Shown piece by piece: positions 1 through 12,646 of a DNA stretch of 64,000 nucleotides. The stretch comes from Streptomyces sannanensis. Its GTDB lineage: Bacteria; Actinomycetota; Actinomycetes; Streptomycetales; Streptomycetaceae. The position numbers and the translations under genes are program-made. Location: positions 1,364,001-1,428,000 of the forward strand of contig NZ_BAAAYL010000001.1 of assembly GCF_039536205.1 (NCBI RefSeq), given 5' to 3'. Every line of letters begins with the position of its first letter. The first letter of the stretch is position 1. The notes below the pieces were generated by a model. That model had not been told where the DNA came from, did no database searches, and saw nothing but the letters and a program-made list of their open reading frames with translations.

Positions 1-3000
1 CCGCGAACAGGTCGGCGGCCATGTTGAGATCGCACGCGAGTGTGTCGGGGTTGGCCGAGGTGTACTTGGCGCGATAGCGGTTGCGGGTGGCCAGGGTGAG
101 CCGCTTGGCGTCCTCCAGGTTGCCCGCCCTGCGCAGGGACACGGCGAGGCTCTTGGCCGCGGCGAGCGTGCCGGGGAAAGACCGGCCGAGCTGCTCCTTG
201 TAGATGTCGTACGTACGGCTGAGCAGCGTCACGGAGTCCTCGTAGCGCCCGACCTCCCGCAGGTCACGGGCGAGGCTCTGGGCGGAGGAGAGCGTGTACG
301 GATGCTCGGGTCCGAGCACCTCGGTGCGCCGGTCGTAGACGTCCTGGTCGATCTCGCGGGCCCGGGCGTACTGCCCGACCATGCGCAGGTTGAGGGCCAG
401 GTTGTTGGCGGCGGCGAGGGTGCGCGGGTGGGACTCGTCGAAGATCTGCCGGAATCCTTCATGGGCCTCCGTGGCCAGTTCCATCGCCCTGCTGTACCGG
501 CCGAGCGCGCCGAGGTCCATGGCGAGGGCGCTGGTGGTCATGTACGTGTGCGGGTGCGAGGCCCCGAGCACCGCCCGCTGGCGTTCCAGAGTCTCCTCGT
601 CCAGCTCTCTGGCCTCCACGTAACGGCCGCGCGAGCGCAGGATGTTGGAGAGATGGAACCGTAGGTAGAGGAACTGCAGGTCGTCCTCGCCCAGCTGCTC
701 CCGCCACACGTCGTACAGCTCGTTGCCGAGGGTGAAGGCCGCGTTGAAGTCACCGCGCTTCCACAGATAGCGCACCCTGTCGATCATCAGCCGACGGGTT
801 TCCGGCTCGGAGCAGAGCCTGGCCTCGGAGGAGTTGAGATGCGGCCAGATGGTGGCGAACCGCGGCCAGGTCTCGGGGTTGTCTATCGGCTCGTCGGCGT
901 CGGGCCTGGCGCCTGCGAGGATCCGGTGGACGGCGTGCCTGGCGTCCTTCTGCTCCTGCTCGGTCAGCTGCGCCCGGATGACCGCCTGGACCAGCCGGTG
1001 CACCTGGATGCTGTTGCCGACCTGGTCGACCTTGGCCAGGGCGAACCGGCCGATCTCCCGGATGACCCGGCCCAGCACCAGCTTCTCCTGGAGCGTGGCG
1101 TCGTAGGGCTTGAGCGCGTCGATCATCTCCTTGCTGTAGAGGAGATTGGCGGAGATCGGCTCGGGTGCGAAGAAGGCGCAGAGCTGCAGCAGCCGCACGG
1201 CGGCGGGCGAGCGCTGCTTGAGCCGTTCGATGGAGACGTTCCAGGTCGCGGCGACGGGTTCCGGGTAGCCGGCGGGCTGGTTGAGCGAGAGCACGCCGGT
1301 CGCCTGCCGGCTCAGCTGTTCCAGGTACGCCGTCACGGGTGTGGCGGTCTCCGCGATCCAGGCCGCGGCCTGTTCCACGGCGAGCGGCAGGTCACCGACG
1401 GCGGTGGCCACCTGGTCGGCGTCCTCCTTGGTGAGTCCGGCGGCGCGCCGCTGGAGGTGCTCGATGGACTCCTCGCGCAGGAAGACGTCGACGGGCAGGG
1501 CGTCGCCGAACTGCGACCAGGTCTGGTTCCTGGAGGTGACCAGGATGTGCCCGCCGGAACCGCCCTGCGGGAAGAACCTCTTCAGCTGTTCGGGGTCGTC
1601 GGCGTTGTCGAAGACCAGCAGCCAGCGGCTGGTCGGTACGCCGCGCCGCAGCATGTCAATGGCTTCCTGCGAGGCGGCGGCCATGTCCTCGCCGCCCTGC
1701 GCGCCGAGACGTGCGGCAAGTTCGGCGAGGCCGGCCACCACGTCGTCGGTCTGCTCGGAGGAGATCCACCACACCAGGTCGTAGTCGGCCATGAAGCGGT
1801 GCACGTACTCCAGCGCCACCTGGGTCTTGCCGACGCCGCCGAGTCCGTACAGGGTCTGCGGCTGCGGCAGGACGACCGCCATGCCGCCGCCGAGCTGGTC
1901 ACGCATCCGCTCCAGCACCACGGAGCGCCCGGTGAAGCCGGGGTTGCGGGGCGGCGCGTTCCAGATCCTCGGTACGGTCCCGGGGAAGCGCGGCCCCGGT
2001 GTGACCGCCTCGGTCACCTGCGCCGGCCGGTCGAGGGCGCGCAGCAGGGCAGCGGTGGCGTGGACCTCGTCGAGCCGGAACAGGTCGACCGGGTTGCGGT
2101 CGATGTACGGCGTGGTGAGCCGTACGTCGCCGACGCGCAGCGGCAGCAGCTGCCGGCGGGCGCCGGTGGGGTCCTCGGCAGCGGCCCGCGCCCAGACCTC
2201 CATGGCGCGGGCCGACTTGAGGTAGGCGCTGGACAGCAGCACCACGGTACGGGCGGCGTTCTCGGCGACCGCCACGTCGGTGTCGGAGAGGGACGACTGG
2301 GCGGAGACGTCGCGCGGCACCACCCGGAAGCCGGCCCGGGTGAGCACCGATTCGATCCAGTCGGCCCACATCCGGTTCTCGGCCACATAGCTGAGGAAGA
2401 GGTCGGCGGGCAGCGCGGGGCGGCGGCGGGTGAAGGCGTCCCTGATCCGCAGCCTGGCTTCCTCGTTGACCGGAGGCATGGAGGTGATCTGCCCCTCGGT
2501 CACGACGGAGGTGAGCCGTTCGAAGGCGGAGAGCAGGGAGTTGGTGAGGCCCGCCTCGTCGCCGAAGGTGGCCAGGGTCTCCTCGTAGGCGTAGTACGGC
2601 CGGTAAGGGATCTCCACCGCGCCCCAGTAGGCGGTGAGTTCGTCCCCGTTGAGGCCGCTGGGGAAGCGGTCGAACTTCAGCCTGGCCAGTGCCCGTCCGG
2701 CGTCCGCCTTCTCCTTCTCGCCCTCGTCGATGCGCATGGGGACGGGCAGGATCCGGATGCCCCGGCCGTTGTAGCGTTCGTCGATCTGCCGGGCGACGGC
2801 GGCGGCGCCGTCGATGGACTGGTCGCTGAGGGTGAAGCAGTCCACCAGGACGTCGGGCAGGTGGACGGTGCAGATGTCGGCGATGTCGCTCAGACCGGTG
2901 CGGCTGTCGATGAGGACGTAGTCGTAGTTCTCCTTCATGTCCTCGCGCAGGGCGTCGAAGAACATGCCGCCGCCGAGGCGGTCGTAGAAGTTGTCCCAGT

Positions 3001-3418
3001 CGAAGGTGGAGACAGTGGCGGAGTATTCGCGGTTCTGCCGGCCCGCGGAGACGAAGTCCAGGGTGCCGCCGTCGGGGAACTCCCAGCCAAGGATCTCGGG
3101 CGTGAGCGAGACGGCGTGCGGCTGGATCCTGGCGTAGTCGCGGTGCCAGTCGTCGGGGCGCTGTGCCGGGTTGGTGGCGGCCCAGGCGTACTCGGTGATC
3201 AGGTCGATCACTCCGGTGGTGGCGCCGAGCGTGGACGGGTCGAGAAAGGGGTGGAAGAACCGGTGCAGGCCGGGGGCCTCCAGGTCCCAGTCCACCGCCA
3301 GGACCCGCTTGCCGTTGGCGGCGAGTATCCAAGCGGTGTTGGCGAGGGCCATCGTGCGGCCCGTGCCGCCCTTGTAGGAGTAGAACGTGACGATGCGTCC
3401 GTCACGACTGGCTGTCAT
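1..3418 (-). CDS. fxsT: FxsT-type NLR-like protein: KGGTGRT ATPase, TIR, NB-ARC, TPR (3' end outside window)
   Basis: An ATG at 3418 opens an uninterrupted frame to the left edge, giving at least 1139 residues without the C-terminus. Residues 16-22 read KGGTGRT, a MinD/ParA-type deviant Walker A motif, followed by a SIMIBI-like ATPase region. Near residue 340, ADLFLSYVAENRMWADWIE opens a TIR-like domain. Near 525, LYGLGGVGKT is an NB-ARC P-loop, followed by LVFDNADDPE (Walker B), HILVTSRN and GDLPLA, the usual STAND order. From about 840 there are kinesin-light-chain-type TPRs (RGRYVEAREL, LGRYSRAMEL, VGQYARAREI, VGRYEDSVTL). This matches the tetratricopeptide protein of FxSxx-COOH systems. 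The start overlaps the upstream fxsC stop by 17 bp, implying translational coupling. Family membership is clear; the biochemical role (ligand-triggered STAND switch with TIR activity) is inferred. Confidence 0.88.
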   Translation of the reverse strand, partial: MTASRDGRIVTFYSYKGGTGRTMALANTAWILAANGKRVLAVDWDLEAPGLHRFFHPFLDPSTLGATTGVIDLITEYAWAATNPAQRPDDWHRDYARIQPHAVSLTPEILGWEFPDGGTLDFVSAGRQNREYSATVSTFDWDNFYDRLGGGMFFDALREDMKENYDYVLIDSRTGLSDIADICTVHLPDVLVDCFTLSDQSIDGAAAVARQIDERYNGRGIRILPVPMRIDEGEKEKADAGRALARLKFDRFPSGLNGDELTAYWGAVEIPYRPYYAYEETLATFGDEAGLTNSLLSAFERLTSVVTEGQITSMPPVNEEARLRIRDAFTRRRPALPADLFLSYVAENRMWADWIESVLTRAGFRVVPRDVSAQSSLSDTDVAVAENAARTVVLLSSAYLKSARAMEVWARAAAEDPTGARRQLLPLRVGDVRLTTPYIDRNPVDLFRLDEVHATAALLRALDRPAQVTEAVTPGPRFPGTVPRIWNAPPRNPGFTGRSVVLERMRDQLGGGMAVVLPQPQTLYGLGGVGKTQVALEYVHRFMADYDLVWWISSEQTDDVVAGLAELAARLGAQGGEDMAAASQEAIDMLRRGVPTSRWLLVFDNADDPEQLKRFFPQGGSGGHILVTSRNQTWSQFGDALPVDVFLREESIEHLQRRAAGLTKEDADQVATAVGDLPLAVEQAAAWIAETATPVTAYLEQLSRQATGVLSLNQPAGYPEPVAATWNVSIERLKQRSPAAVRLLQLCAFFAPEPISANLLYSKEMIDALKPYDATLQEKLVLGRVIREIGRFALAKVDQVGNSIQVHRLVQAVIRAQLTEQEQKDARHAVHRILAGARPDADEPIDNPETWPRFATIWPHLNSSEARLCSEPETRRLMIDRVRYLWKRGDFNAAFTLGNELYDVWREQLGEDDLQFLYLRFHLSNILRSRGRYVEARELDEETLERQRAVLGASHPHTYMTTSALAMDLGALGRYSRAMELATEAHEGFRQIFDESHPRTLAAANNLALNLRMVGQYARAREIDQDVYDRRTEVLGPEHPYTLSSAQSLARDLREVGRYEDSVTLLSRTYDIYKEQLGRSFPGTLAAAKSLAVSLRRAGNLEDAKRLTLATRNRYRAKYTSANPDTLACDLNMAADLFA

Positions 3419-4736
3419 CCGTGTCCTCCGCATCGGGCGCAAAGTCGAGCGTGTCGGGGATGAAATGCGTGGTGGCGTAGTCGGTGCCCATGGGTCCGAC
3501 GAGCCGCGGCCGCTCGGTGTGTCCGCCTCCTGAGGGCGGGTAGACCGCGGCGTGTCTCAGGTACTGCTGGGCCGCGGCCTCCACCACCTGCGGCAGGATC
3601 CGGCCGAAGGCCTCCATGCTCGGCACGCCCTTGGCGGCGGCCCGGCAGGCGGCGCGGCCCTGACGCATCTTGGACGGCATGGTGTCCTCGAGCCGGGCGG
3701 TCAGTTCCGGTTCCCTGGCACGGCTCTCGTGGTCGTCGCGGTTCCACGGGACGACGACGCTCACCCAGGGCCGGTTTTCGGCGTCGAAGGCCTGGAGCCG
3801 GGCGCGGCGGTCGTCGTCGGCCAGGGCCCAGCGGTCGATCAGCAGGACCTCCGGGCGCGAGGGGGGCTGCTTGCCGTCGAAATGCAGCACCTCCTCGTCG
3901 AAGGAGGACACAGTGGCCTGGTAGTTGAGGGAGCGCACCAGGTCCTCGGTCACATAGGCGAGCGGCCGCTGGGAGACCGGGTGGTAGGGGTTCCAGTCCA
4001 GCGGGCTGTCCCCGTAGTAGGCGGGGTCGCGCCCTTCGGGGAGGTCGTGCCGGGTGGGGGCGGCGACGGTCACCTGCATGGGACGGGGGTTGGCGCTGGG
4101 GGCGCCGAAGGCGCTGGGGGCGAGGCGGTAGTCGACCGGGCGGCCGGGCCGGATACCGGTTGAGTCGGCCACGCTCACGATGCGTTTGGCGAGTTCATAG
4201 ACGGCACGTTCGTACTCCTCGGCGAATATCCGGAGTTTGATCAGCCCGTAGAGCCCATCGGTCACATAGCGGTCCCCGAATGCCCGGTGGTTGAACTGCA
4301 ACCGTTCGGCGGGACCGGGTAGTTGTTCGGGCGGTACGGGTACCCAGAGGGCCGGCACGATCGCTTCCGCCGGGCGGTTGCTGCGTGCCTGGTGCTGGAT
4401 GGCCCGCTGGGCGAAGGCGTACCACTCCTTGCCGCACATTTCGCTGGCGAAGTAACGCGGGGAGAAGAGCGGGACGAAGACCCGGCAGGTGGCGAGCACC
4501 TCGCCGAGCCGTTCCGACCAGCCCTCTCCCGAACGTATCTCCCGGTCCATGAAGCCGGCGGGTGCTCCGGCCGGAAGATCGGTCATGGCCATCACATGAC
4601 CGCACAGATCACGGAACAGCCGCTCGACCCACATATCGGGATCCGGACCACCGGCGCCGTACCTCGGTGTATGCGCATAGCTCAGAAAGAAGTACGGCCG
4701 GTGGTCCGCCGCTCGCGGCCTTGCTGATGCGTGCAC
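3402..4736 (-). CDS. fxsC: TIR-like protein FxsC
   Basis: A protein of 444 residues with a GTG start and an AGGACGGGGG ribosome-binding stretch. PYFFLSYAHTP (residues 14-24) is the TIR box-1 strand. The region SPRYFASEMCGKEWYAF carries a Glu at about residue 104 at the place of the catalytic Glu of NAD-cleaving TIR domains. A second Rossmann-like half (LAYVTEDLVRSL, EVLLIDRWALADDDRRA, PWVSVVVPWNRDD) extends to about residue 350. This matches the TIR-like protein always found next to fxsA/fxsB. About 75 bp of relatively AT-rich DNA separates it from the AAC(3) gene upstream, and it overlaps fxsT downstream. NADase activity is possible from the retained Glu but is not shown by sequence alone. 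Confidence 0.85.
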   Translation of the reverse strand: MHASARPRAADHRPYFFLSYAHTPRYGAGGPDPDMWVERLFRDLCGHVMAMTDLPAGAPAGFMDREIRSGEGWSERLGEVLATCRVFVPLFSPRYFASEMCGKEWYAFAQRAIQHQARSNRPAEAIVPALWVPVPPEQLPGPAERLQFNHRAFGDRYVTDGLYGLIKLRIFAEEYERAVYELAKRIVSVADSTGIRPGRPVDYRLAPSAFGAPSANPRPMQVTVAAPTRHDLPEGRDPAYYGDSPLDWNPYHPVSQRPLAYVTEDLVRSLNYQATVSSFDEEVLHFDGKQPPSRPEVLLIDRWALADDDRRARLQAFDAENRPWVSVVVPWNRDDHESRAREPELTARLEDTMPSKMRQGRAACRAAAKGVPSMEAFGRILPQVVEAAAQQYLRHAAVYPPSGGGHTERPRLVGPMGTDYATTHFIPDTLDFAPDAEDTDDSQS

Positions 4737-4811
4737 ACGACCCCCGTCCTGCTGTATTGAAGAACATCATTCCGGAGCAGCTAGTGCCCCATCCCCTCAA
4801 TGTTCGGTCAA

Positions 4812-5723
4812 TCAACGCCTTTTTTCAGTCATCCAGACAACGGCATGGTCCACCGCATCCTTGATCGAAAACAACTTCGCCCTGGTCCCTCCCAGTTGTC
4901 CCTCCGTCAGCAGCACGGGAGAGAAGTCGGCGCCGATCGCCTCGAAATCGCCGTCGTCCAGCTCGGCATCCATGTAGGCATACCAGAACGGCTTTCCGTT
5001 CTCCCGGACCACGCAACGATACTGACGCCTCCCGGTGGAAGGAATCCGGTATTCCGCGAGATGGAACGCGGTGCACACCGCGAATCCGGTATTGATCATC
5101 AGCACCTGCGCCCCGGACCGGAACAGCGCGCCGAGCGGCGATTCCTCACCCAGATGACAGTCCCTCGGATGTCCCGCGGTCAGCTCCGCGGCCCGTCCGC
5201 CAAGGGCCGCGAAGGAGGTCTGCGGATGGGCGCTGCGCGCCGCGCCCGGGGTCCTCCGGACGCACTCGGCCAGTCGGCCCATCCCCGGACACGGGGTGAC
5301 ACCGGGATCGAAGGCCGGCATCGCCGCCCGGAAGGCGGCGGCCTGTTCCTCGGTCATCCCCCGGACGCGCTCCAGATAGGCCGGGGAGGTGTCGGAGTTC
5401 TCCGGGGTGAAGGCCGGCACGACCAGCGTGCCGGCCGGCCCCAGTGCTTCGAGCAGCGCGTCCCGCAGCGCCGTGTCCCGCAGCCCGGTCCCGCGCAACG
5501 AGGCGTGTACGAGCAGAGTGCCCCCCGCCCGTACCCCGAGGCGCCGCAACTGCGCCACGACACCGTCCGGCCGCGCACCACCGTCCCGGACCCCAGGACC
5601 GGCACTCCGGCCCCCCCGAGGTGGAACGTCAGTCCGCACAAAACCGTCCAGCCGCGCAACACCGTCCCAGACCCCAAAACCGGCACTCCGGCCCCCCGGA
5701 GGTGGAACGTCAGCCCCGCTCAC
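4812..5723 (-). CDS. AAC(3)-family N-acetyltransferase of the fxs cluster
   Basis: The fold is that of aminoglycoside N(3)-acetyltransferases: GTLLVHASLRGTG, GTLVVPAFTPENSD, HPQTSFAALG (family His retained), EESPLGALF, CTAFHLAEYRIP. An acetyltransferase of this family is a usual neighbour of fxsB, so it more likely acts on the peptide or a small molecule than in drug resistance (inference). The longest frame starts at GTG 5723, 14 bp inside fxsB. Its first 55 residues are mostly two copies of a tandemly duplicated 81-bp unit. A GTG at 5558 (VAQLRRLGVRAGG) gives 248 residues and a start closer to typical family members, so the N-terminus is uncertain. Confidence 0.8.
   Translation of the reverse strand: MSGADVPPPGGRSAGFGVWDGVARLDGFVRTDVPPRGGRSAGPGVRDGGARPDGVVAQLRRLGVRAGGTLLVHASLRGTGLRDTALRDALLEALGPAGTLVVPAFTPENSDTSPAYLERVRGMTEEQAAAFRAAMPAFDPGVTPCPGMGRLAECVRRTPGAARSAHPQTSFAALGGRAAELTAGHPRDCHLGEESPLGALFRSGAQVLMINTGFAVCTAFHLAEYRIPSTGRRQYRCVVRENGKPFWYAYMDAELDDGDFEAIGADFSPVLLTEGQLGGTRAKLFSIKDAVDHAVVWMTEKRR
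5563..5715. repeat. 81-bp tandem duplication at the 5' end of the AAC(3) gene
   Basis: Two near-identical 81-bp copies begin at 5563 and 5644. Shared words include GACCCCA, ACCGGCACTCCGGCCCCCC and GTGGAACGTCAG. Because 81 is 27 codons, the duplication is silent for frame and encodes two DVPPxGGRSAGxGV blocks. It lies between the fxsB stop and the conserved start of the acetyltransferase fold. Confidence 0.85.
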
Positions 5724-7965
5724 CCGCCGCCGCCCCCTCCCATTCGCCCCACAGCACAGCCAGCAGGCTCTTCCCGCTCACGGTCAGTTCGGCCGCCTGT
5801 TCCAGAGCTTCCAGCGCCCGGCGGCTCTCCGCCAGAGCTCGTACGGCCAGTTCCGCGGTGGCCTCGTCCGCCCGCCAGTACGCGGCCAGCGCGACGCGTT
5901 CGTACGCCCCGACCAGCAACCCCGACACCGGCACCGGCTCCCCCTGCCACGGCGCCGGATGGAGCCAGTCGCCGTCCAGAGCGTACAGATCGGCCACCTC
6001 GCACAGGGCCCGCAGCTCGGCACGCCGAAAACCGCGCAGCAACGCTGGGGCGAGCATCCGCCCGCCGGCGAGGACGGGGACGCCCAGTGCGCCGTAGCCG
6101 TGCCGACCCGCCGAAGGCTCCCCGGAGGCCAGCGGGGTGAATGTGGTCAGCGCGGCGACGGCCCGGTTCGCATGGCCGGGCACGGCCGCCCGCAGCAAGG
6201 CCCATGCCTCGGCGAGCAGACGGCTCCAGGCGGCGGCCTCGGCCGGCTCGAGCCGGGGGTGCGCGGGGGTGGGGAAGCAGTCCCGGTACGGGTCGACGTC
6301 GTCCAGCACCAGGCCGGTGACGCCGAGCCTGCGGACGGGCCACCAGCCGGGGGCCGGTTCTCCGGGGCATACGATCCGCCGCTCGACACCGTCCACGCGG
6401 ACCACGAAACCGTCCTCGGCGGGGCGGACCTCGGCACTGCCGTGCTCCCCCGGCCCGCCCAGCACCAGCGAGCCCAGCGTGGGCAGACTGAGCGTGCCGT
6501 CCCTCCAACCGGCCCGGACGGTCAGGTCCAGCCCGCCACGCACGGCCGCCGCCGCGGTGTACGCCGAGAGGAATCCCGCGGCCCCGGCCGCGCCGGGCCG
6601 CTCCTCGCGCAGGGCGTCGAGGGTGTCCAGCAGCCAGCTGCGGGCGTAGGGATGGGCCAGTACTTCGTCAAGGCTGCCGAGGCCGTCGGAGCGCTGCTCG
6701 ATGGTGCCCGCCAGCTCCCACGCCTCGTCCCAGGCCTCGCCGCCGCGCCCGTCGAGATCGGCGTGCAGCCGGGCGAGCAGAGTACGGGTCAGCTCGTCCT
6801 GCCCGGCGGCCTGCTCGGCGGGGTCCCGCACCGCGGGGGAGGCCGTACGCGCCGCTGTACGGGCCTCGATGCCGAGGATGAGGGCCTTCAGGTCGGCGCA
6901 GTAGACGGAGGGGTTGTCGAAGCCGGATTCCGGAGCGTACCGGTGCGTGTAGAGACCCCCTCCGCACGAACGGACGACCGGACACCGGCGGCACTGCTCG
7001 CTGACGCCGGCCAGCCCCAGTTGCCTGGCCCGTACCCCGGGATGGGCGGCGACCTCGTCGAAGGAGTGACGGAACACGTCGAAGCCGGTGGAGGCCGCGC
7101 CGTCGTAGGCGCTCTTGAGCGAGTCGACCTGCTCGAGGGTGCCGTCGGTCTCGACGACGACCAGATCGGTGGGGGCGAGGCCCAGGGACTCGGTCAGGCT
7201 GGGACCGCCGCCGAGGGTGGAGAGCACCGACGCGAAGAGACGAACCGGGACCGGGCGGCCCTGCCGCTCCCAGCGGTCGAAGACGGCCAGGATCCAGTCG
7301 GCGTAGGCGGTCGGCGAACCGTCCGGGCGGGCCGGAGGGGCCTCCCAGGTGGCGTGGGGCAGCAGGAAGTCGATGCGCGGCGGGTCCAGGGCGGTCAGCG
7401 CGTCCAGTACGGCGGCCGGGTCGTTCGCCACGTCGATGGTGCACAGAAGGCCGAGATACAGGTGGCGGAAGCGCTCCTGGCTGAGCAGTTCGACGGCTCC
7501 GAGGACCAGGGGGTGGCTGGTGCGGCCGTCGGCGAAGCGGCGATGGCGGTCATTGGCCGCTTTGTCGCCGTCGAGGGAGATTCCGACCTTGACGTCGTAC
7601 TCGTCGAAGAGGTCGAGATGGCGGCTGCTCAGCTGCACACCGTTGGTATGGATGCGCAGGTCGAGGCCGGCGACTCCGGCGAGGGCCGTGGTCAGCTCCT
7701 CGCAGACGCGTCTCAGCCGGGGGATGCCCGCCAGCAGGGGCTCCCCTCCGTGCAGGATCACTGACACGGAGGGCAGTGCATGTGTCTTCGCATGCTCAGC
7801 CAGTCGCAGAGCTGTCCAGGAAATGGCCTCGTCGGAGATTGCCCTGGGGCGGGTTCGCCAGCTCTGATCTGCGTGTTCATAGATATAGCAGTGGTCACAA
7901 GCAAGATCGCATCTGCTGTGGACCTTGAGAACGATCTCGCGGAATGGGACCAGGGGTCCTGTCAT
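5710..7965 (-). CDS. fxsB: FxsB-family radical SAM/SPASM peptide maturase with degenerate HExxH-type C-terminal domain
   Basis: A protein of 751 residues. C19-x3-C23-x2-C26 (SRCDLACDHCYIYEHAD) is the radical SAM cluster motif, and VILHGGEPLLAG follows it. A Cys-rich SPASM region around residues 310-350 (SEQCRRCPVVRSCGGGLYTHRY ... YCADLK) binds auxiliary Fe-S clusters. This matches FxsB, the maturase assigned to FxSxx-COOH peptides and classed as cyclophane-forming. It would join the Phe side chain to the Ser position of the substrate C-terminus. The last 300 residues resemble the HExxH-type domain often fused to such maturases, but the expected His and Glu positions read RGFRRAEL (about 644-651) and SGLLVGAY (681-688), so the metal ligands seem lost. 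ATG 7965 lies 9 bp after the fxsA stop. Confidence 0.9.
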   Translation of the reverse strand: MTGPLVPFREIVLKVHSRCDLACDHCYIYEHADQSWRTRPRAISDEAISWTALRLAEHAKTHALPSVSVILHGGEPLLAGIPRLRRVCEELTTALAGVAGLDLRIHTNGVQLSSRHLDLFDEYDVKVGISLDGDKAANDRHRRFADGRTSHPLVLGAVELLSQERFRHLYLGLLCTIDVANDPAAVLDALTALDPPRIDFLLPHATWEAPPARPDGSPTAYADWILAVFDRWERQGRPVPVRLFASVLSTLGGGPSLTESLGLAPTDLVVVETDGTLEQVDSLKSAYDGAASTGFDVFRHSFDEVAAHPGVRARQLGLAGVSEQCRRCPVVRSCGGGLYTHRYAPESGFDNPSVYCADLKALILGIEARTAARTASPAVRDPAEQAAGQDELTRTLLARLHADLDGRGGEAWDEAWELAGTIEQRSDGLGSLDEVLAHPYARSWLLDTLDALREERPGAAGAAGFLSAYTAAAAVRGGLDLTVRAGWRDGTLSLPTLGSLVLGGPGEHGSAEVRPAEDGFVVRVDGVERRIVCPGEPAPGWWPVRRLGVTGLVLDDVDPYRDCFPTPAHPRLEPAEAAAWSRLLAEAWALLRAAVPGHANRAVAALTTFTPLASGEPSAGRHGYGALGVPVLAGGRMLAPALLRGFRRAELRALCEVADLYALDGDWLHPAPWQGEPVPVSGLLVGAYERVALAAYWRADEATAELAVRALAESRRALEALEQAAELTVSGKSLLAVLWGEWEGAAAGERG

Positions 7966-7974
7966 TCCGCCAGT

Positions 7975-8142
7975 CTAGAGCGCCGAGTTGAAAGTGGACG
8001 CCTGTACAGAGCGGCCGATTGACGCGGGAAGGACCCGGCCGAGCTTCTTGGCGGCGTCGGCACCGCGCACATCGATCTCGGCGAGGGGTACGCGGTTCTT
8101 CTTCGCAGCGGCGAAGGAGACAGAGGATTCTGAGGTCTTCAC
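7975..8142 (-). CDS. fxsA: FxSxx-COOH peptide precursor FxsA
   Basis: A 55-residue peptide starting at GTG 8142, with AAGGA five bases upstream. It begins VKTSESSVSFAAAKKNRVPL and ends STFNSAL followed by TAG. The last five residues F-N-S-A-L fit the family signature F-x-S-x-x-COOH exactly. The body (LAEIDVRGADAAKKLGRVLP) is the conserved leader-like region. The maturase gene follows 9 bp downstream. By family knowledge, the Phe-x-Ser unit is the three-residue cyclophane substrate of FxsB. A longer in-frame extension to 8283 exists but lacks family resemblance and a good ribosome-binding site, so I reject it. Confidence 0.9.
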   Translation of the reverse strand: MKTSESSVSFAAAKKNRVPLAEIDVRGADAAKKLGRVLPASIGRSVQASTFNSAL

Positions 8143-8345
8143 GGCCGTCCTTGCTGACGTTGTTCCGGATAGGGACGCTGCACCGGCATCTGCACCATTG
8201 CAGTGTCGGCGGCACGACTTTACTCTCATGGCCACTGATGGCAACTGAGGTCGGCCACTTGAGGCCGGAGCGTTGCGGCACAATCGATCCGGTGAAAGAA
8301 ACCGGCTCTACTTCGAAAGAGTGAAGACGAAAACCGCAGACGGGG
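8143..8345. promoter_or_regulatory. Divergent promoter region between fxsA and the SLATT gene
   Basis: A 203-bp divergent intergenic region. On the minus strand TTGCCA (8244-8239) and TAAAGT (8222-8217), 16 bases apart, resemble a housekeeping sigma promoter 75 bp upstream of fxsA. The proposal rests on eye-matching only. No clear operator was seen. Confidence 0.3.
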
Positions 8346-9293
8346 GTGCATGTGACAGCGTTTCCCGGCCCACTGCAGAGTATGGTCTTCCGGAACGCTG
8401 ATCTGCCGAAGCTGTTCCACCACACGGATTCCGTTGCCATAGCCCGGCAGCGGGAGGCGGTGAACACCATCCGCTCGCAGCTGTTTCTGCTGGTCGTGGG
8501 CGCTGCCCTGGCCGCGCTGCCCTGGCGGCTGAAGCTCGGCGGCACGTTCCAACTGGTCAGTGCGCTCAGCGCGCTCGCGTACGCCGGCGTGCTACTGATG
8601 ACGTACCGCGCCACCAGACGCCGAGCAAAGTCGCACTGGCAACTCAACAGGTCCGCGGCGGACTTCATCAAGTCCATGTGCTGGCGCTACGCCGTGCACG
8701 GGACACCCTTCGACTCCGATTCCCCCGACCATGAACGGCTGTTCATCGCTCAGGTGGAGGAGGGGCTCCGGGAACTGAGAAAGGTCGGCTGGCAGGATCC
8801 GCGGGACGGCTCGGCCGGCCTGCCGGAAGCCGGCGATCCCGACCTGATCACCGCTGCCATGCGGGAGTTACGGGCCAAGTCGTTCGGCGTCCGCAGGGAG
8901 ACCTATGTACGGGACCGGCTGATCGAGCAGCGCAACTGGTACCGGCGGCGCCAGGACCGGACCCGGCGCGCCGCGGCACTGTGGTCGGCGGCCATCGTCG
9001 TACTCACCGCGCTCGCGCTGCTCTTCGGTACGCTGCGCGCCTTCTCGGTGGCGGAACCGGCCGACCTGGCGGGGCTGCTGTCGGCGTCGGCCGCCGCCTG
9101 TATCGCCTGGAGCGAGTCGCGGCGCCATCAGCCGCTGATCGCGGCGCTCTCCCTGGTGGAGCAGGATCTGATGGCCATGCATACGGCGATGGAGAACACC
9201 GTCGGCGAGCGGCAGTGGGCCTCGGCGGTGTACGAGACGGAGCGGATCGTCTCGCCGCAGCACACCGAGTGGGTTGCCAGACACCGGAGTTGA
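8346..9293 (+). CDS. SLATT/DUF4231-type membrane protein with a TTA codon
   Basis: A protein of 315 residues. Two hydrophobic hairpins are visible: LFLLVVGAALAALPW plus LVSALSALAYAGVLLMTY near the N-terminus, and ALWSAAIVVLTALALLFG plus LLSASAAACIAW near the C-terminus. Charged helical segments lie between them, as in SLATT/DUF4231 proteins. SLATT proteins are proposed membrane effectors switched on by nucleotide signals in conflict systems. Leu175 is encoded by TTA at 8868-8870, so in Streptomyces translation should depend on bldA tRNA. GTG 8346 is used; GTG 8352 is also possible. Its 3' neighbour, facing it, encodes a SLOG-family protein, which fits a sensor-effector pair. Function is inferred. 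Confidence 0.7.
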   Translation: MHVTAFPGPLQSMVFRNADLPKLFHHTDSVAIARQREAVNTIRSQLFLLVVGAALAALPWRLKLGGTFQLVSALSALAYAGVLLMTYRATRRRAKSHWQLNRSAADFIKSMCWRYAVHGTPFDSDSPDHERLFIAQVEEGLRELRKVGWQDPRDGSAGLPEAGDPDLITAAMRELRAKSFGVRRETYVRDRLIEQRNWYRRRQDRTRRAAALWSAAIVVLTALALLFGTLRAFSVAEPADLAGLLSASAAACIAWSESRRHQPLIAALSLVEQDLMAMHTAMENTVGERQWASAVYETERIVSPQHTEWVARHRS

Positions 9294-9386
9294 GCAACAG
9301 CCAGGTGCTTCGCTGCATGCCCGAAGAAGGAGTAAGCCCGGAGTGCTGAGCAACAGCGCCCCGGGGTGCTTCAGCCGCGCGGCGCC

Positions 9387-9878
9387 TCACGCCCGTTCCA
9401 CGCCCTCGCACCAGATGACCGTCACCGGTTTGCCGGCGTCGAGGGCGTAGTTCACGATGTCGCCGGTGCCCCCGCGCCCCCGTGCCGGGCGGCCGTCCCA
9501 CACCGCCAGCAGCCGGTCGCAGTTGTCGGCGATATAGGCGCCCGCGGCGTAGTAGGCCTCGTCGGTGGAGTGCTCGAATCCCATCCGGACCTCCTGGGTG
9601 GCCCGCTCCTTCAGCCTCCGGTACTGGGCCAGTTCCCCGGCGTCGGCGAAGCCCCGCTCGTAGTCGCCGCTGGGGATGACCACGGTCAGTTCGGCCCCGC
9701 ATTCCAGGGCGATGTCGGCGAACAGCTGGTCGGCGCCGGCTGCCAGGCTGGACAGCGCCTCCAACGCACCGCCGTGCCCGCAGAGCGCGGCGCGCAGCGC
9801 GGAGCGGATGTGGTCGAGGACTTCCGAGGGGATGTTCCGGTGGCCGGTCACTCCGATGCGTTTCACTAAGCCCCCCAT
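9387..9878 (-). CDS. SLOG-family (LOG/DprA-like Rossmann) putative nucleotide-ligand sensor
   Basis: A protein of 163 residues with IGVTGHRNI at the N-terminus, then SLAAGADQLFADIALECGA, a hydrophobic strand TVVIPSGDY, DNCDRLLAVWDG and GTGDIVNYALDAG, ending in PVTVIW. This is the Rossmann-like SLOG pattern shared with LOG, DprA and TIR-associated sensors. A GTG at 9866 preceded by GGGGGG gives a slightly shorter alternative (VKRIGVTGHRN). It faces the SLATT gene across 93 bp. SLOG proteins are thought to bind or generate nucleotide-derived signals. Pairing with the SLATT protein is supported by family knowledge and adjacency only. Confidence 0.72.
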   Translation of the reverse strand: MGGLVKRIGVTGHRNIPSEVLDHIRSALRAALCGHGGALEALSSLAAGADQLFADIALECGAELTVVIPSGDYERGFADAGELAQYRRLKERATQEVRMGFEHSTDEAYYAAGAYIADNCDRLLAVWDGRPARGRGGTGDIVNYALDAGKPVTVIWCEGVERA

Positions 9879-10017: not shown

Positions 10018-10920
10018 TCAGTACACGCTGACGCCATAGGCGTTGAGGGCCTCGACCACGGGCTGGAAGTAGGTGGTACCACCGGTGGTGCAGTTGCCGC
10101 TGCCGCCGGAGGTGAGGCCCAGGGCCGTGGTGCCGGAGTAGAGCGCGCCGCCGGAGTCACCGGGCTCGGCACAGATGTTCGTACGGATCATGCCGTAGAC
10201 GATGTCGCCGCCACCGTAGTTGACGGTGTAGTTGAGGCCGGTGACGGTGCCGCAGTGAATGCCGGTGGTGGAGCCGCGCCGGCAGGCCGACTGGTTGACC
10301 GAGGGGTTCGCGGCACTGGTGATGTCCTGGCTTCCCACGGTGCCCGGGTGCGCGAGGGAAGTGTTGCTGTAGCGCACCAGACCGTAGTCGTTGACGGGGA
10401 AGCTGGAGCCCGCCGTGGGGCCGATGAGCGTGGTGTGCGCGGAGCTGGTGTACCAGTTGCCCGCGCCGTCGGTGCAGTGACCGGCGGTCAGGAAGTAGTA
10501 GGTGCTCCCGCTGCGCACATTGAACCCGAGCGAACAGCGCCAGCTGTCCGCGTAGATGGCGTCGCCGCCGGCGATGTACCTGGTGATCTTTCCGGGGGTG
10601 CGCTCCACCTTGATGGCCCCGGCGTTGCGCCCGGCGGCCTGCTTGATCGTGGCGATCTCCGCCGTGGAGACGGTGCTGTCCGCGGTGACCACCAGTGCAT
10701 TGGCCGCCTGGTCGACATGCCAGGCGGTTCCTGCCACGTCCGCGGCGAGAACGGCGTCACCCGCGGCGGCGAGGGCGGTGGCACTGTATGTGGTCGCTGC
10801 GGGGTCGGCGCTGGCCTGGGGCATCGCGAGCCCGATCGCGGCCAGGAGGCCGGAGGTGACTGCGAGCAGCCGGGTTCGTCTCGCAGGGCCGCTTCGGAAC
10901 GTGGTGCGCTTGATCCTCAC
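10018..10920 (-). CDS. Secreted S1-family serine protease (streptogrisin-like)
   Basis: A preproprotein of 300 residues. The start is GTG 10920 preceded by GGGAGGAGAA. The N-terminus has a basic stretch ([10 protein letters not shown]) and a hydrophobic core ([17 protein letters not shown]) followed by ASADP, a signal peptide. A pro-region spans to about residue 115. The mature domain shows the triad: His in FLTAGHC, Asp in VNDYGLVRY, Ser in [10 protein letters not shown], plus paired Cys as in alpha-lytic protease/streptogrisin enzymes (family S1E). The pro-region acts as an intramolecular chaperone in this family. It is a tandem paralogue of the protease gene just upstream, the two reading in the same direction. 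Confidence 0.88.
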
Positions 10921-11106
10921 TTCTTCTCCTCCCGAAGGGAATTGAGGGTCGCTGAAGGTGGGGGGACCCGTGAGGCGCAGCCGAGGGGCACAGCCGCATT
11001 CCATGTGCGCCGTGCCCCTGACAAGCGCTGTGGGGAGTATTCGGCGGCCCGGCCACCGGGCGCAAGGGCGCCTTTTCGGCCGGGTCGCGGGGGACGTCGG
11101 ACTGGG

Positions 11107-11955
11107 CTAGTAGACGTTCACCTTGTACTTGGCCAGCGCCTCGGGGACGGGCTGGTAGAAGGTGGTTCCGCCGACGGTGCAGTTGCCGCTGCCGCCGGAG
11201 GTGATACCGAGCGCCTTGTTGCCGTCGTAGAGCGCGCCGCCGGAGTCGCCGGGCTCGGCGCAGACATTGGTCTGGATCATGCCGCGGACGGTGCCGCCGC
11301 CCGAGTAGCGCACGGTCACGTTCAGCGCGGTGACCGTTCCGCCGTGGGTGCCGGTGGTCGAGCCGGTACGCTTGACCGGCTCGCCGACATAGGCGTCGGC
11401 GGCGCTGAAACCGCCGGGGTGGCTCAGCGAGGCGTTGTCGTAGCGCACCAGGGCGTAGTCGTTGCCCGGGAAGCTGGAGCCGGCGGTGGCGCCGATCAGT
11501 GTGGACTGGCCGGAGTTGGTGTACCAGGCGTTGGCGACATTGCCGCAGTGGCCGGCGGTGAGGAAGTAGTAGGTGCTGCCGCTGACGACGTTGAAGCCGA
11601 GCGAACAGCGGTAGCCGCCGCCGTAGATGGCGTCACCGGAGGCGAGCAGGGGCTTGAACACACCGGCCGCACGCTGGATCCGTACCGCGCCCGCGTCCGT
11701 TCCGGCGGCCCGCTTGATCCTGCCCAGTCCGGCGATGGAGACCGTGCTGTCGGCGGTCACCACGACCCTGTCGGCCGCCTGGTCGACATACCAGGCAGTG
11801 CCTCCGACGTTCGCCTTCTCCACGGCTGTGCTCACCGCGGCAAGCCGGTCCGCGCTGTACGTGCGGGGGGCCGCCGCGGTGGCGTTGGGCAGCGCGGCCG
11901 CGGTGGCGGCCGCCAGACCGGCGGCGACGGCGAGCAGTCGAGTACGTCTCCTCAC
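11107..11955 (-). CDS. Secreted S1-family serine protease (second tandem copy)
   Basis: A preproprotein of 282 residues. The start is GTG 11955 with AGGAGGAG five bases upstream. The signal peptide is [20 protein letters not shown], ending near NATAAA. The pro-region ([18 protein letters not shown]) parallels that of the neighbouring protease. The triad is visible as [16 protein letters not shown] and [10 protein letters not shown]. It lacks the extra Cys pair seen in the sister copy ([14 protein letters not shown] versus [13 protein letters not shown]), so the two mature enzymes differ in disulfide content. Substrate range cannot be read from sequence. Both copies are likely to act in extracellular protein turnover. 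Confidence 0.87.
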
Positions 11956-12646
11956 AGTGCTCCTCCTCAGGAGTGGGGGCCCGGGGTCGGAACCCGGAGG
12001 CAGCCACAGGCTTGGCGTGCGCCTGTCAGCGCCAGCGTGAAATATGGGGCATGGTTCAGGACGGGGCAAGGGTGCTTTGAGGACAACCCTGAGGCGGTGG
12101 CCGGCCGCCGCCTCAGGGTGTCCACGACGAAGGGGTGGCAACTGCTCTTCCAGCAAAGTTCCTTGGGGGGATTAGCTCGGTTGGGTGATTGTCGGGTTGA
12201 TGGCTTGTGGTTCGGGCGGGGGCCTCGGGTGGCGTCGCGAGTGCGATCTGGGATGCCGGGTGCGGTGCCGGCGTGCGGGGCCCCTGCTCCACCGGCGAGA
12301 TGGTTCAGGGCCTCCCCGTCGCCTCTGGCCGCCCCCACATGGCCGGGTCGTGAGACGGTGCCCATCAGCGGCCTCCGGCCGCAGGCCGCCCTTCCGGGAC
12401 CGGACCATGGACAGGATCCGTGTCGCCACCCGGAGGCGAAAGCGGACGACCTGGGGGCACCTCCGGGGGCACCTCCGGGGGCGCCTCTGGGGGCGCCTCC
12501 CAGCGGTAGCTGGGGGAGGTAGCTGGGGGAGGTAGCTGGGGGAGGTAGCTGGGGGAGGTAGCTGGGGGAGGTAGCTGGCGGAGTGCCCAAGACCGTTCGG
12601 GGCGCGCCGGCGAGCGGACTCACTCCCGCTCACTGGCAGGGAACGG
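11956..12646. other. Non-coding region upstream of the second protease gene
   Basis: 691 bp without a convincing gene. The part near 11956 should carry the protease promoter and leader. The middle is GC-rich without codon bias. The right third holds the tandem 12-mer repeat array described separately. Short open frames here are not supported by codon usage or homology. Confidence 0.6.
12455..12582. repeat. Tandem GC-rich repeats: GGGGGCACCTCC words and a GAGGTAGCTGGG 12-mer array
   Basis: About four copies of a GGGGGCACCTCC/GGGGGCGCCTC word lead into CCCAGCGGTAGCTGGG, a palindrome. About six tandem copies of the 12-mer GAGGTAGCTGGG follow. The palindrome plus 12-mer module recurs inside the elements near 15.8 kb (inverted) and 29.6 kb. 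Confidence 0.8.

Follow-up and report, generated by a model that had tools for sequence, protein, structure and literature searches.

The fxs locus of Streptomyces sannanensis, located at the start of the 64,000-nucleotide stretch analysed here (the window), encodes a peptide ending in F-x-S-x-x-COOH (FxsA), its radical SAM maturase (FxsB), a TIR protein (FxsC) and an NLR-like protein (FxsT). The comparison of related loci revealed a conserved unit larger than the five genes recognised at first: a SLATT_3-SLATT_1 membrane protein and a SLOG protein are encoded beside fxsA, and an alpha/beta-hydrolase beside fxsT. We consider it evenly balanced whether the locus is a chromosomal conflict system, either immune-like or acting in controlled cell death, in which FxsT would gate FxsC, the SLOG-SLATT pair would provide the output and FxsA the input. 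The gene set and its linkage, the TIR fold and glutamate of FxsC, the SLOG fold, the loss of the HExxH ligands and the fusions of FxsC to vWA-type proteins were all observed in sequences, models and comparisons.

The five genes described in the earlier note were found at their positions, head to tail on the minus strand with overlaps or short gaps, by the open reading frames of the window and profile matches. The fxsA gene (7975..8142; 55 codons, GTG start, C-terminus FNSAL-COOH) is separated by 9 bases from fxsB (5710..7965), which overlaps an aminoglycoside 3-N-acetyltransferase-like gene (AAC; 4812..5723, given its GTG start at 5723). After 75 bases follows fxsC (3402..4736), which overlaps fxsT (1..3418). 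Contrary to the earlier claim, the window does not contain the complete locus, because the stop codon of fxsT lies 521 bases before base 1 (G000:C1:1363480); the full gene, coding for about 1312 amino acids from the ATG at 3418, and the flanks were taken from the same genome (coordinates G000:C1). Moreover, the conserved unit reaches position 9878 and includes the hydrolase gene outside the window (G000:C1:1362361-1363245). The SLATT gene (8382..9293, plus strand, alternative GTG start at 8346; PF18184, E 4.9e-37; PF18181, E 4.1e-35) is divergent from fxsA, and the gene of its partner, in which the SLOG fold was found, occupies 9387..9878 on the minus strand. SLATT domains were reportedly defined by Burroughs et al. 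in 2015. The gene order of the window locus recurs across other genomes and is thus more than chance.

Our main sample comprised 150 genomes of the genus Streptomyces, and a class-wide sample comprised 394 genomes. FxsB (TIGR04269, E <= 1e-80) was present in 94 of the 150 genomes, with 140 matches divided into 59 long forms (open frames of at least 700 codons) and 81 short ones. Among the matches listed, 49 of the 59 long forms had a same-strand FxsC, and 51 a same-strand FxsT, at a distance of no more than 15 kb, so the proposed linkage of a peptide-maturase pair with TIR/STAND proteins is genuine. The count used all 140 FxsB matches, 70 of the 72 FxsC matches listed (two second pieces of the same genes were dropped) and 142 FxsT matches among those listed, with the eight weakest dropped and only six candidates scored per genome; FxsA was represented by 81 matches chosen by eye, from which no count is drawn. 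Widespread fxsA-fxsB loci lacking a TIR/STAND partner, which the earlier note had named as evidence to the contrary, were mostly not encountered. The exceptions are six of the 59 long forms with neither partner in range (with at least one of them, G139:C278, located at the end of its contig), an fxsA-fxsB-hydrolase locus without fxsC and fxsT (G054; L228/L246), and some short forms. Among the matches listed, 39 of the 81 short forms had neither FxsC nor FxsT; in 19 such loci, fetched after selection by eye, an FxsT-type match was strong in nine, weak in eight (56-79 bits) and absent in two. NF040586 alone was matched in 137/150 genomes, so proteins of the FxsT type are not confined to peptide loci. 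FxsC was found in 53/150 genomes and, class-wide, in 36/394 genomes from 10 of 137 genera.

The partner genes were counted in the 56 fetched loci of the 150-genome set with both FxsB and FxsC, in which genes were called by a script based on G+C by codon position that missed some starts and genes. The 50 long-form loci contained FxsT (49), hydrolase (48), SLATT (38), SLOG (37) and AAC (32). Relatives of the SLATT protein with at least 44% identity gave 42 matches, of which 41 were at fxs loci, and SLOG relatives with at least 52% identity gave 42 matches in the same 42 genomes, again with 41 at fxs loci; the remaining listed SLOG matches, all of 46% or less, form a separate group. All 46 hydrolase relatives with at least 66% identity were at fxs loci, whereas 11 of 55-65% lie elsewhere. 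Close SLATT relatives occurred in 42 of the 49 genomes with an FxsB-FxsC locus and in none of the 101 others (three weaker ones, of 28-33% identity, lie elsewhere), and the hydrolase in 46/49 versus 0/101; the Fisher P values are nominal and ignore shared ancestry. We also compared 67 named loci of at least 20 kb, drawn from the best 80 of 119 relatives found, which represent the nearest relatives and are partly of the same kind as the loci of the first set. FxsA, FxsB, FxsC, FxsT, hydrolase and SLOG were present in 67/67, SLATT in 66/67 and AAC in 23/67; the locus of S. griseus NCTC 13033 (L191) carries all seven proteins other than AAC.

The conserved neighbourhood has a preferred chromosomal site. 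Its flanking gene was found in 87 of the 150 genomes; FxsA, FxsB, FxsC and FxsT lie beside it in 26, none of them was listed in 58, and a part in 3. All 26 are SLATT genomes. In genomes free of fxs (e.g. L235, L238, L239), the two flanks can be joined with nothing but the hydrolase in between, and 10 of the 11 hydrolase loci of 55-65% identity (L235-L244) occupy the same site without fxs. Remnants were seen as SLOG and hydrolase (L240, where SLOG did not reach E 1e-20), SLOG and SLATT (L132, genome G057), and hydrolase with fxsA and fxsB (L246). Based on these partial blocks and fxs-free sites, the fxs block seems to have been lost often. Elsewhere in the genus, fxs loci in different neighbourhoods likewise come with SLATT, SLOG and hydrolase, e.g. 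L045, L050, L068, L072 (without SLOG within the fetched stretch) and L089 (without hydrolase). The persistence of the hydrolase at the common site, the single survival of SLOG and SLATT away from fxs (L132) and the sharing of one site by 26 of the 42 SLATT genomes would fit mere syntenic neighbours of fxs. We regard that explanation as very improbable, given the recurrence of all three genes with fxs in other neighbourhoods, including those of other genera (hydrolase in 7/20, SLATT/SLOG in 1/20), and the confinement of close SLATT relatives to FxsB-FxsC genomes. The hydrolase itself is a candidate member: where fxs is absent, it could be a remnant or a resident anchor.

Several neighbours were considered and rejected. 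SLATT lies behind fxsT at eight of the 56 loci, as if "moved"; this was not accepted as independent evidence because the order is explained by a single inversion, that of the fxs block flanked by SLATT and hydrolase, which by itself keeps the neighbours. The AAC gene (Antibiotic_NAT PF02522, E 1.5e-69) is an optional member and not a core part, being present in 32/50 and 23/67 loci and, at L076 and L081, lying beyond the hydrolase in the other direction. The MreB, AMP-ligase and MaoC neighbours are tied to particular flanks, as are the S1 proteases, a relative of which stays at the chromosomal site also without fxs. Two tandem genes for alpha-lytic-type S1 proteases adjoin the SLOG gene in the window (10018-11004 and 11107-12156, minus strand). 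At eight loci (L039 12645-13301; L040-L043, L053, L056, L059), a protein of 211-239 residues is encoded between SLATT and fxsA; it has two apparent membrane helices, judged by eye in one sequence, and no Pfam match in the one scanned.

Upstream of fxsA, we found a promoter-like site, TTGCCA-N16-TAAAGT (8217..8244, minus strand), the only one in 3300-9500 (shuffle mean 0.3); no terminator-like site was found in that interval (shuffle mean 1.9). Among 94 distinct regions upstream of fxsA, 32 contained the pattern TTGNCA-N15-18-TANNNT, compared to a shuffle mean of 0.44 and 0 on the reverse strand, the loci being related and not independent. Such a recurring site, the fixed position among ordinary genes of many species and the normal G+C agree with a role in development or stress signalling, with the same parts serving as a controlled-lysis or dormancy switch of the life cycle and not against phages. 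This is a real but minority possibility. The fxs operon is patchy, being present in 26/87 genomes at the common site and partial in 3, unlike a core developmental gene, and FxsC as an effector of plasmid-borne vWA proteins, described below, points to conflict.

All four fxs proteins score above the cut-offs of the FxSxx-COOH families of NCBIfam (TIGR04268, TIGR04269, TIGR04276, NF040586). FxsC consists of a TIR domain (TIR_2, 5.9e-9), for which the TIR fold was found, followed by a C-terminal TIGR04276 domain (242 bits, cut-off 55); it also matches NF040588 with 238 bits (cut-off 130), whereas a search of the PDB by sequence gave no match at E 0.01. In the alignment of 74 FxsC sequences, Glu104 is present in 71, replaced by Gln in two and gapped in one. 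We take it to be the catalytic Glu of the SxxCxxE stretch, and we infer that FxsC cleaves NAD+. The part of FxsT inside the window matches NF040586 with 895 bits (cut-off 300) and also NF047398 (KGGVGR ATPase), TIR_2 (PF13676), NB-ARC and TPR. Its NB-ARC domain (PF00931, 44 bits) keeps the P-loop Lys in 83/83 sequences and is followed by a TPR array of the kinesin-light-chain type, which gives a STAND/NLR-like architecture. The earlier note was correct that two proteins of the locus bear TIR domains. The glutamate, however, is kept in FxsC and lost from the TIR of FxsT, where the aligned position 416 is mostly Val (35) or Leu (20) among 83 sequences, with nine gapped and variable neighbours.

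FxsA passes TIGR04268 with 34.5 bits (cut-off 28), and its relatives lie upstream of FxsB. The stretch ahead of the C-terminal F-x-S-x-x varies among FxsA sequences; the compared sequences were selected by the pattern F.S..$, so their Phe and Ser are conserved by construction. FxsB, a radical SAM/SPASM maturase, matches TIGR04269 with 586 bits (cut-off 370), carries the CxxxCxxC motif at residues 19-26 and aligns with ChlB (PDB 9gm3) with 258 bits. It would be expected to form a Phe-Ser crosslink on FxsA in this strain. Its fused extension matches NF040587, the "inactivated beta-hydroxylase extension form" (424 bits), and the stretch aligned with HExxH reads RGFRR, i.e. the ligands are lost; they are kept in 11 of the 51 other long-form FxsB compared (the window's own copy, L061, was left out). 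With these ligands replaced, the reading of the extension as a zincin peptidase is unsupported at this locus. Fifteen FxsB matches in phage records were all distant radical SAM enzymes (21-26% identical in the ten listed) and were set aside. The same genome holds a second, distant FxsB-like frame (G000:C1:5540989-5541957, 637 codons, 73 bits). At five loci with short-form FxsB (L118, L123, L126, L128, L129), an FxsT-type protein of 953-993 residues is encoded downstream, and four of them have a small frame that ends in YYEDAP or HYEDAP, not FxSxx, as detected with a loosened pattern. In another family, a standalone HExxH hydroxylase-type protein is encoded beside short FxsB (L099 4392-5957, similar in L100-L108), mostly with FxsC and FxsT on the opposite strand.

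A scan of the operon proteins from fxsA to fxsT revealed no exporter, transporter, leader peptidase or other peptidase, which argues for an action of the peptide inside the cell. FxsA and FxsB are a pair of precursor and maturase of the ribosomally synthesised and post-translationally modified peptide (RiPP) type, and Kaur et al. 2020 (PMC7159879), in their treatment of these systems, allow a toxin. FxsA might accordingly be an exported antibiotic or signal, with the other genes in regulation or self-protection. We find this improbable: besides the missing export genes, immunity genes would not usually have a conserved NTPase-TIR output, and FxsC-FxsT exist alone. The intracellular setting, the existence of FxsC-FxsT without a peptide and the variable stretch of FxsA are also compatible with the peptide as a sentinel, or guardee. 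FxsB needs S-adenosylmethionine, reductant and an intact Fe-S cluster; the modified share of FxsA would thus report on cell health, and its loss after a takeover would free FxsT and FxsC. We rate this as rather unlikely, and the same data are equally compatible with a direct trigger role.

FxsC was also found outside the peptide loci. For 13 of the 70 FxsC matches, no FxsB lies within 15 kb: seven of them are in open frames of 949-1575 codons, one with an internal stop, five are FxsC-FxsT pairs (L220-L224) and one (L219) is at a contig edge. On the plasmids NZ_CP108204 and NZ_CP108290, from Streptomyces and Kitasatospora, FxsC forms the C-terminal part of proteins of 1524 and 1337 residues (L213 6605-11179 and L214 7181-11194) with an N-terminal SAV_2336 domain, which is presumably of the vWA type. 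Next to both lie a gene of the AAA or MoxR type and one whose product matches VMAP-M2 or VMAP-C. The fusion protein of NZ_CP108204 also bears FxsT-type TPRs and is thereby a natural fusion of both modules. These fusions to proteins of plasmid MoxR-VMAP systems strengthen the immune-like reading that the earlier note had proposed. A gene of a Tn3-family transposase lies about 6 kb off on the first plasmid. FxsC-FxsT pairs without fxsA and fxsB indicate that the peptide is not obligatory for every such pair; the core would seem to be FxsC-FxsT, with the peptide pair as an input that some loci lack.

In the conflict system as we envisage it, FxsT would be an NLR-like switch made of a KGGxGR ATPase-like domain, a TIR scaffold devoid of the Glu, the NB-ARC NTPase and the TPR array. 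FxsC would be the enzymatic TIR, recruited or released by FxsT. Upon a trigger, FxsC would cleave NAD+ and yield an ADP-ribose (ADPR)-type product, the product would be sensed by the SLOG protein, and SLATT would then permeabilise the membrane. FxsA, cross-linked from Phe to Ser at its free C-terminus by FxsB, may act as the intracellular input to the TPR groove of FxsT, as a restraint or co-trigger. The messenger, pore formation by SLATT and binding of the peptide to FxsT are what we infer here; that a phage is the trigger is a guess based on the associations of these domains. It is conceivable, if doubtful, that the locus amounts to a peptide-gated bacterial resistosome, in which the TPR groove would read the cross-linked peptide, a separate TIR enzyme would be switched and its ADPR-type product would act on SLOG to open the SLATT channel. 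Within this joint reading, the two-gene SLOG/SLATT channel would resemble in its logic TRPM2, which is gated by ADPR.

We must also note the observations that weigh against a conflict system of this composition. The gene linkage is partly shared ancestry, with 26 of the 42 SLATT genomes at one site. SLATT is missing within the fetched stretch at 12 of the 50 long-form loci (L088, a 4 kb contig, among them), and five FxsC-FxsT loci (L220-L224) have neither fxsB nor an FxSxx peptide in the stretch; in three of their genomes (G011, G106, G148), no FxsB was found genome-wide at E 1e-80. SLATT relatives at E <= 1e-25 occurred class-wide in 16/394 genomes, 13 of the same genus and three others at 28-32% identity. 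Among 20 FxsC loci from other genera, SLATT and SLOG were present in one (L098) and the hydrolase in seven (L093-L098, L103). The G+C of the locus is normal (0.699 versus 0.707 in the window), and the surroundings are ordinary chromosomal genes with no obvious defence island. The PADLOC search, whose sole hits were PDC-M28B (ATPase domain) and pVip (radical SAM domain), matched no listed system. Activity, trigger and binding are putative assignments from sequence. In L098, SLOG and SLATT are located just upstream of fxsB in the operon direction, and its SLATT has the SLATT_3-SLATT_1 make-up with 30% identity to that of the window; L093-L098, from another family, all have a convergent hydrolase. 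Few class-wide relatives and one occurrence in 20 loci of other genera mean that SLOG-SLATT belongs mainly to this genus. It is one output, and the hydrolase reaches further.

With the constant partners suggesting a membrane channel as the output, the role of the fxs locus becomes testable: SLOG-SLATT supplies a defined output, the Glu of FxsC a defined residue to mutate and the S. griseus NCTC 13033 copy a usable strain. If the proposal is true, a modified self-peptide feeds an immune-type switch, joining RiPP cyclophane peptides, NLR-like receptors and TIR nucleotide signalling, fields usually kept apart.

The biological role of such loci had been held to be undescribed. In their FxSxx section, however, Kaur, Burroughs, Iyer and Aravind (PMC7159879) already describe standalone FxSxx systems with a TIR/AP-ATPase and a MinD/ParA-like domain and predict a toxin or signal role for the peptide; the peptide idea of the earlier note is not new because this predicted conflict system was listed there. 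The systems share the peptide, the SPASM radical SAM enzyme and the TIR-STAND-TPR protein with an inactive MinD/ParA-like domain. That section does not mention SLOG/SLATT or the hydrolase in connection with FxSxx, and the SLATT passages of the paper concern GTPase-centric systems. It counts a zincin-like peptidase as core, whereas NCBIfam describes an alpha-ketoglutarate HExxH hydroxylase, here inactivated and fused to FxsB. SLOG, SLATT and hydrolase as constant partners are new here relative to that prediction. No mention of them with FxSxx was found in searches of openly licensed papers, though SLATT may have been noted next to FxSxx earlier; nor was a tested role for FxSxx loci found in the searchable literature, where they are known as named families and from computational prediction.

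Among other known systems, the MoxR-vWA-VMAP ternary systems resemble fxs in that FxsC serves them as a C-terminal module, joined in one plasmid protein by TPRs of the FxsT type, but no MoxR, vWA or VMAP match was found among the proteins scanned (fxs, AAC, SLATT, SLOG and one S1 protease). We take IPR026335 to be the FxsB family. NCBIfam names FxsB cyclophane-forming, as are the triceptide or three-residue cyclophane-forming enzymes, among which MscB (IPR026335) joins Phe C4 to Ser C-beta according to the triceptide part of a review (PMC11002830). That part treats triceptides as natural products, whereas the fxs peptide sits in a TIR/STAND operon. Thoeris likewise pairs a TIR enzyme (ThsB) with a SLOG protein (ThsA, SIR2-SLOG), the latter reported in the relevant passage of PMC11204291 to be activated by isomers of cyclic ADPR; in PMC9503650, TIR-SLATT neighbourhoods of phages are described, for which regulation of SLATT by ADPr is predicted. 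In fxs, unlike Thoeris, SLOG is separate and paired with SLATT, STAND and peptide inputs are added, and no SIR2 or Macro match was found among the scanned proteins. The plant TIR-NLR receptors RUN1 and RPP1 combine TIR, NB-ARC and a repeat domain, as does FxsT. Their repeats are leucine-rich, in place of which FxsT has TPRs, and in fxs, the TIR catalysis appears split off into FxsC, leaving FxsT with a TIR that lacks the Glu.

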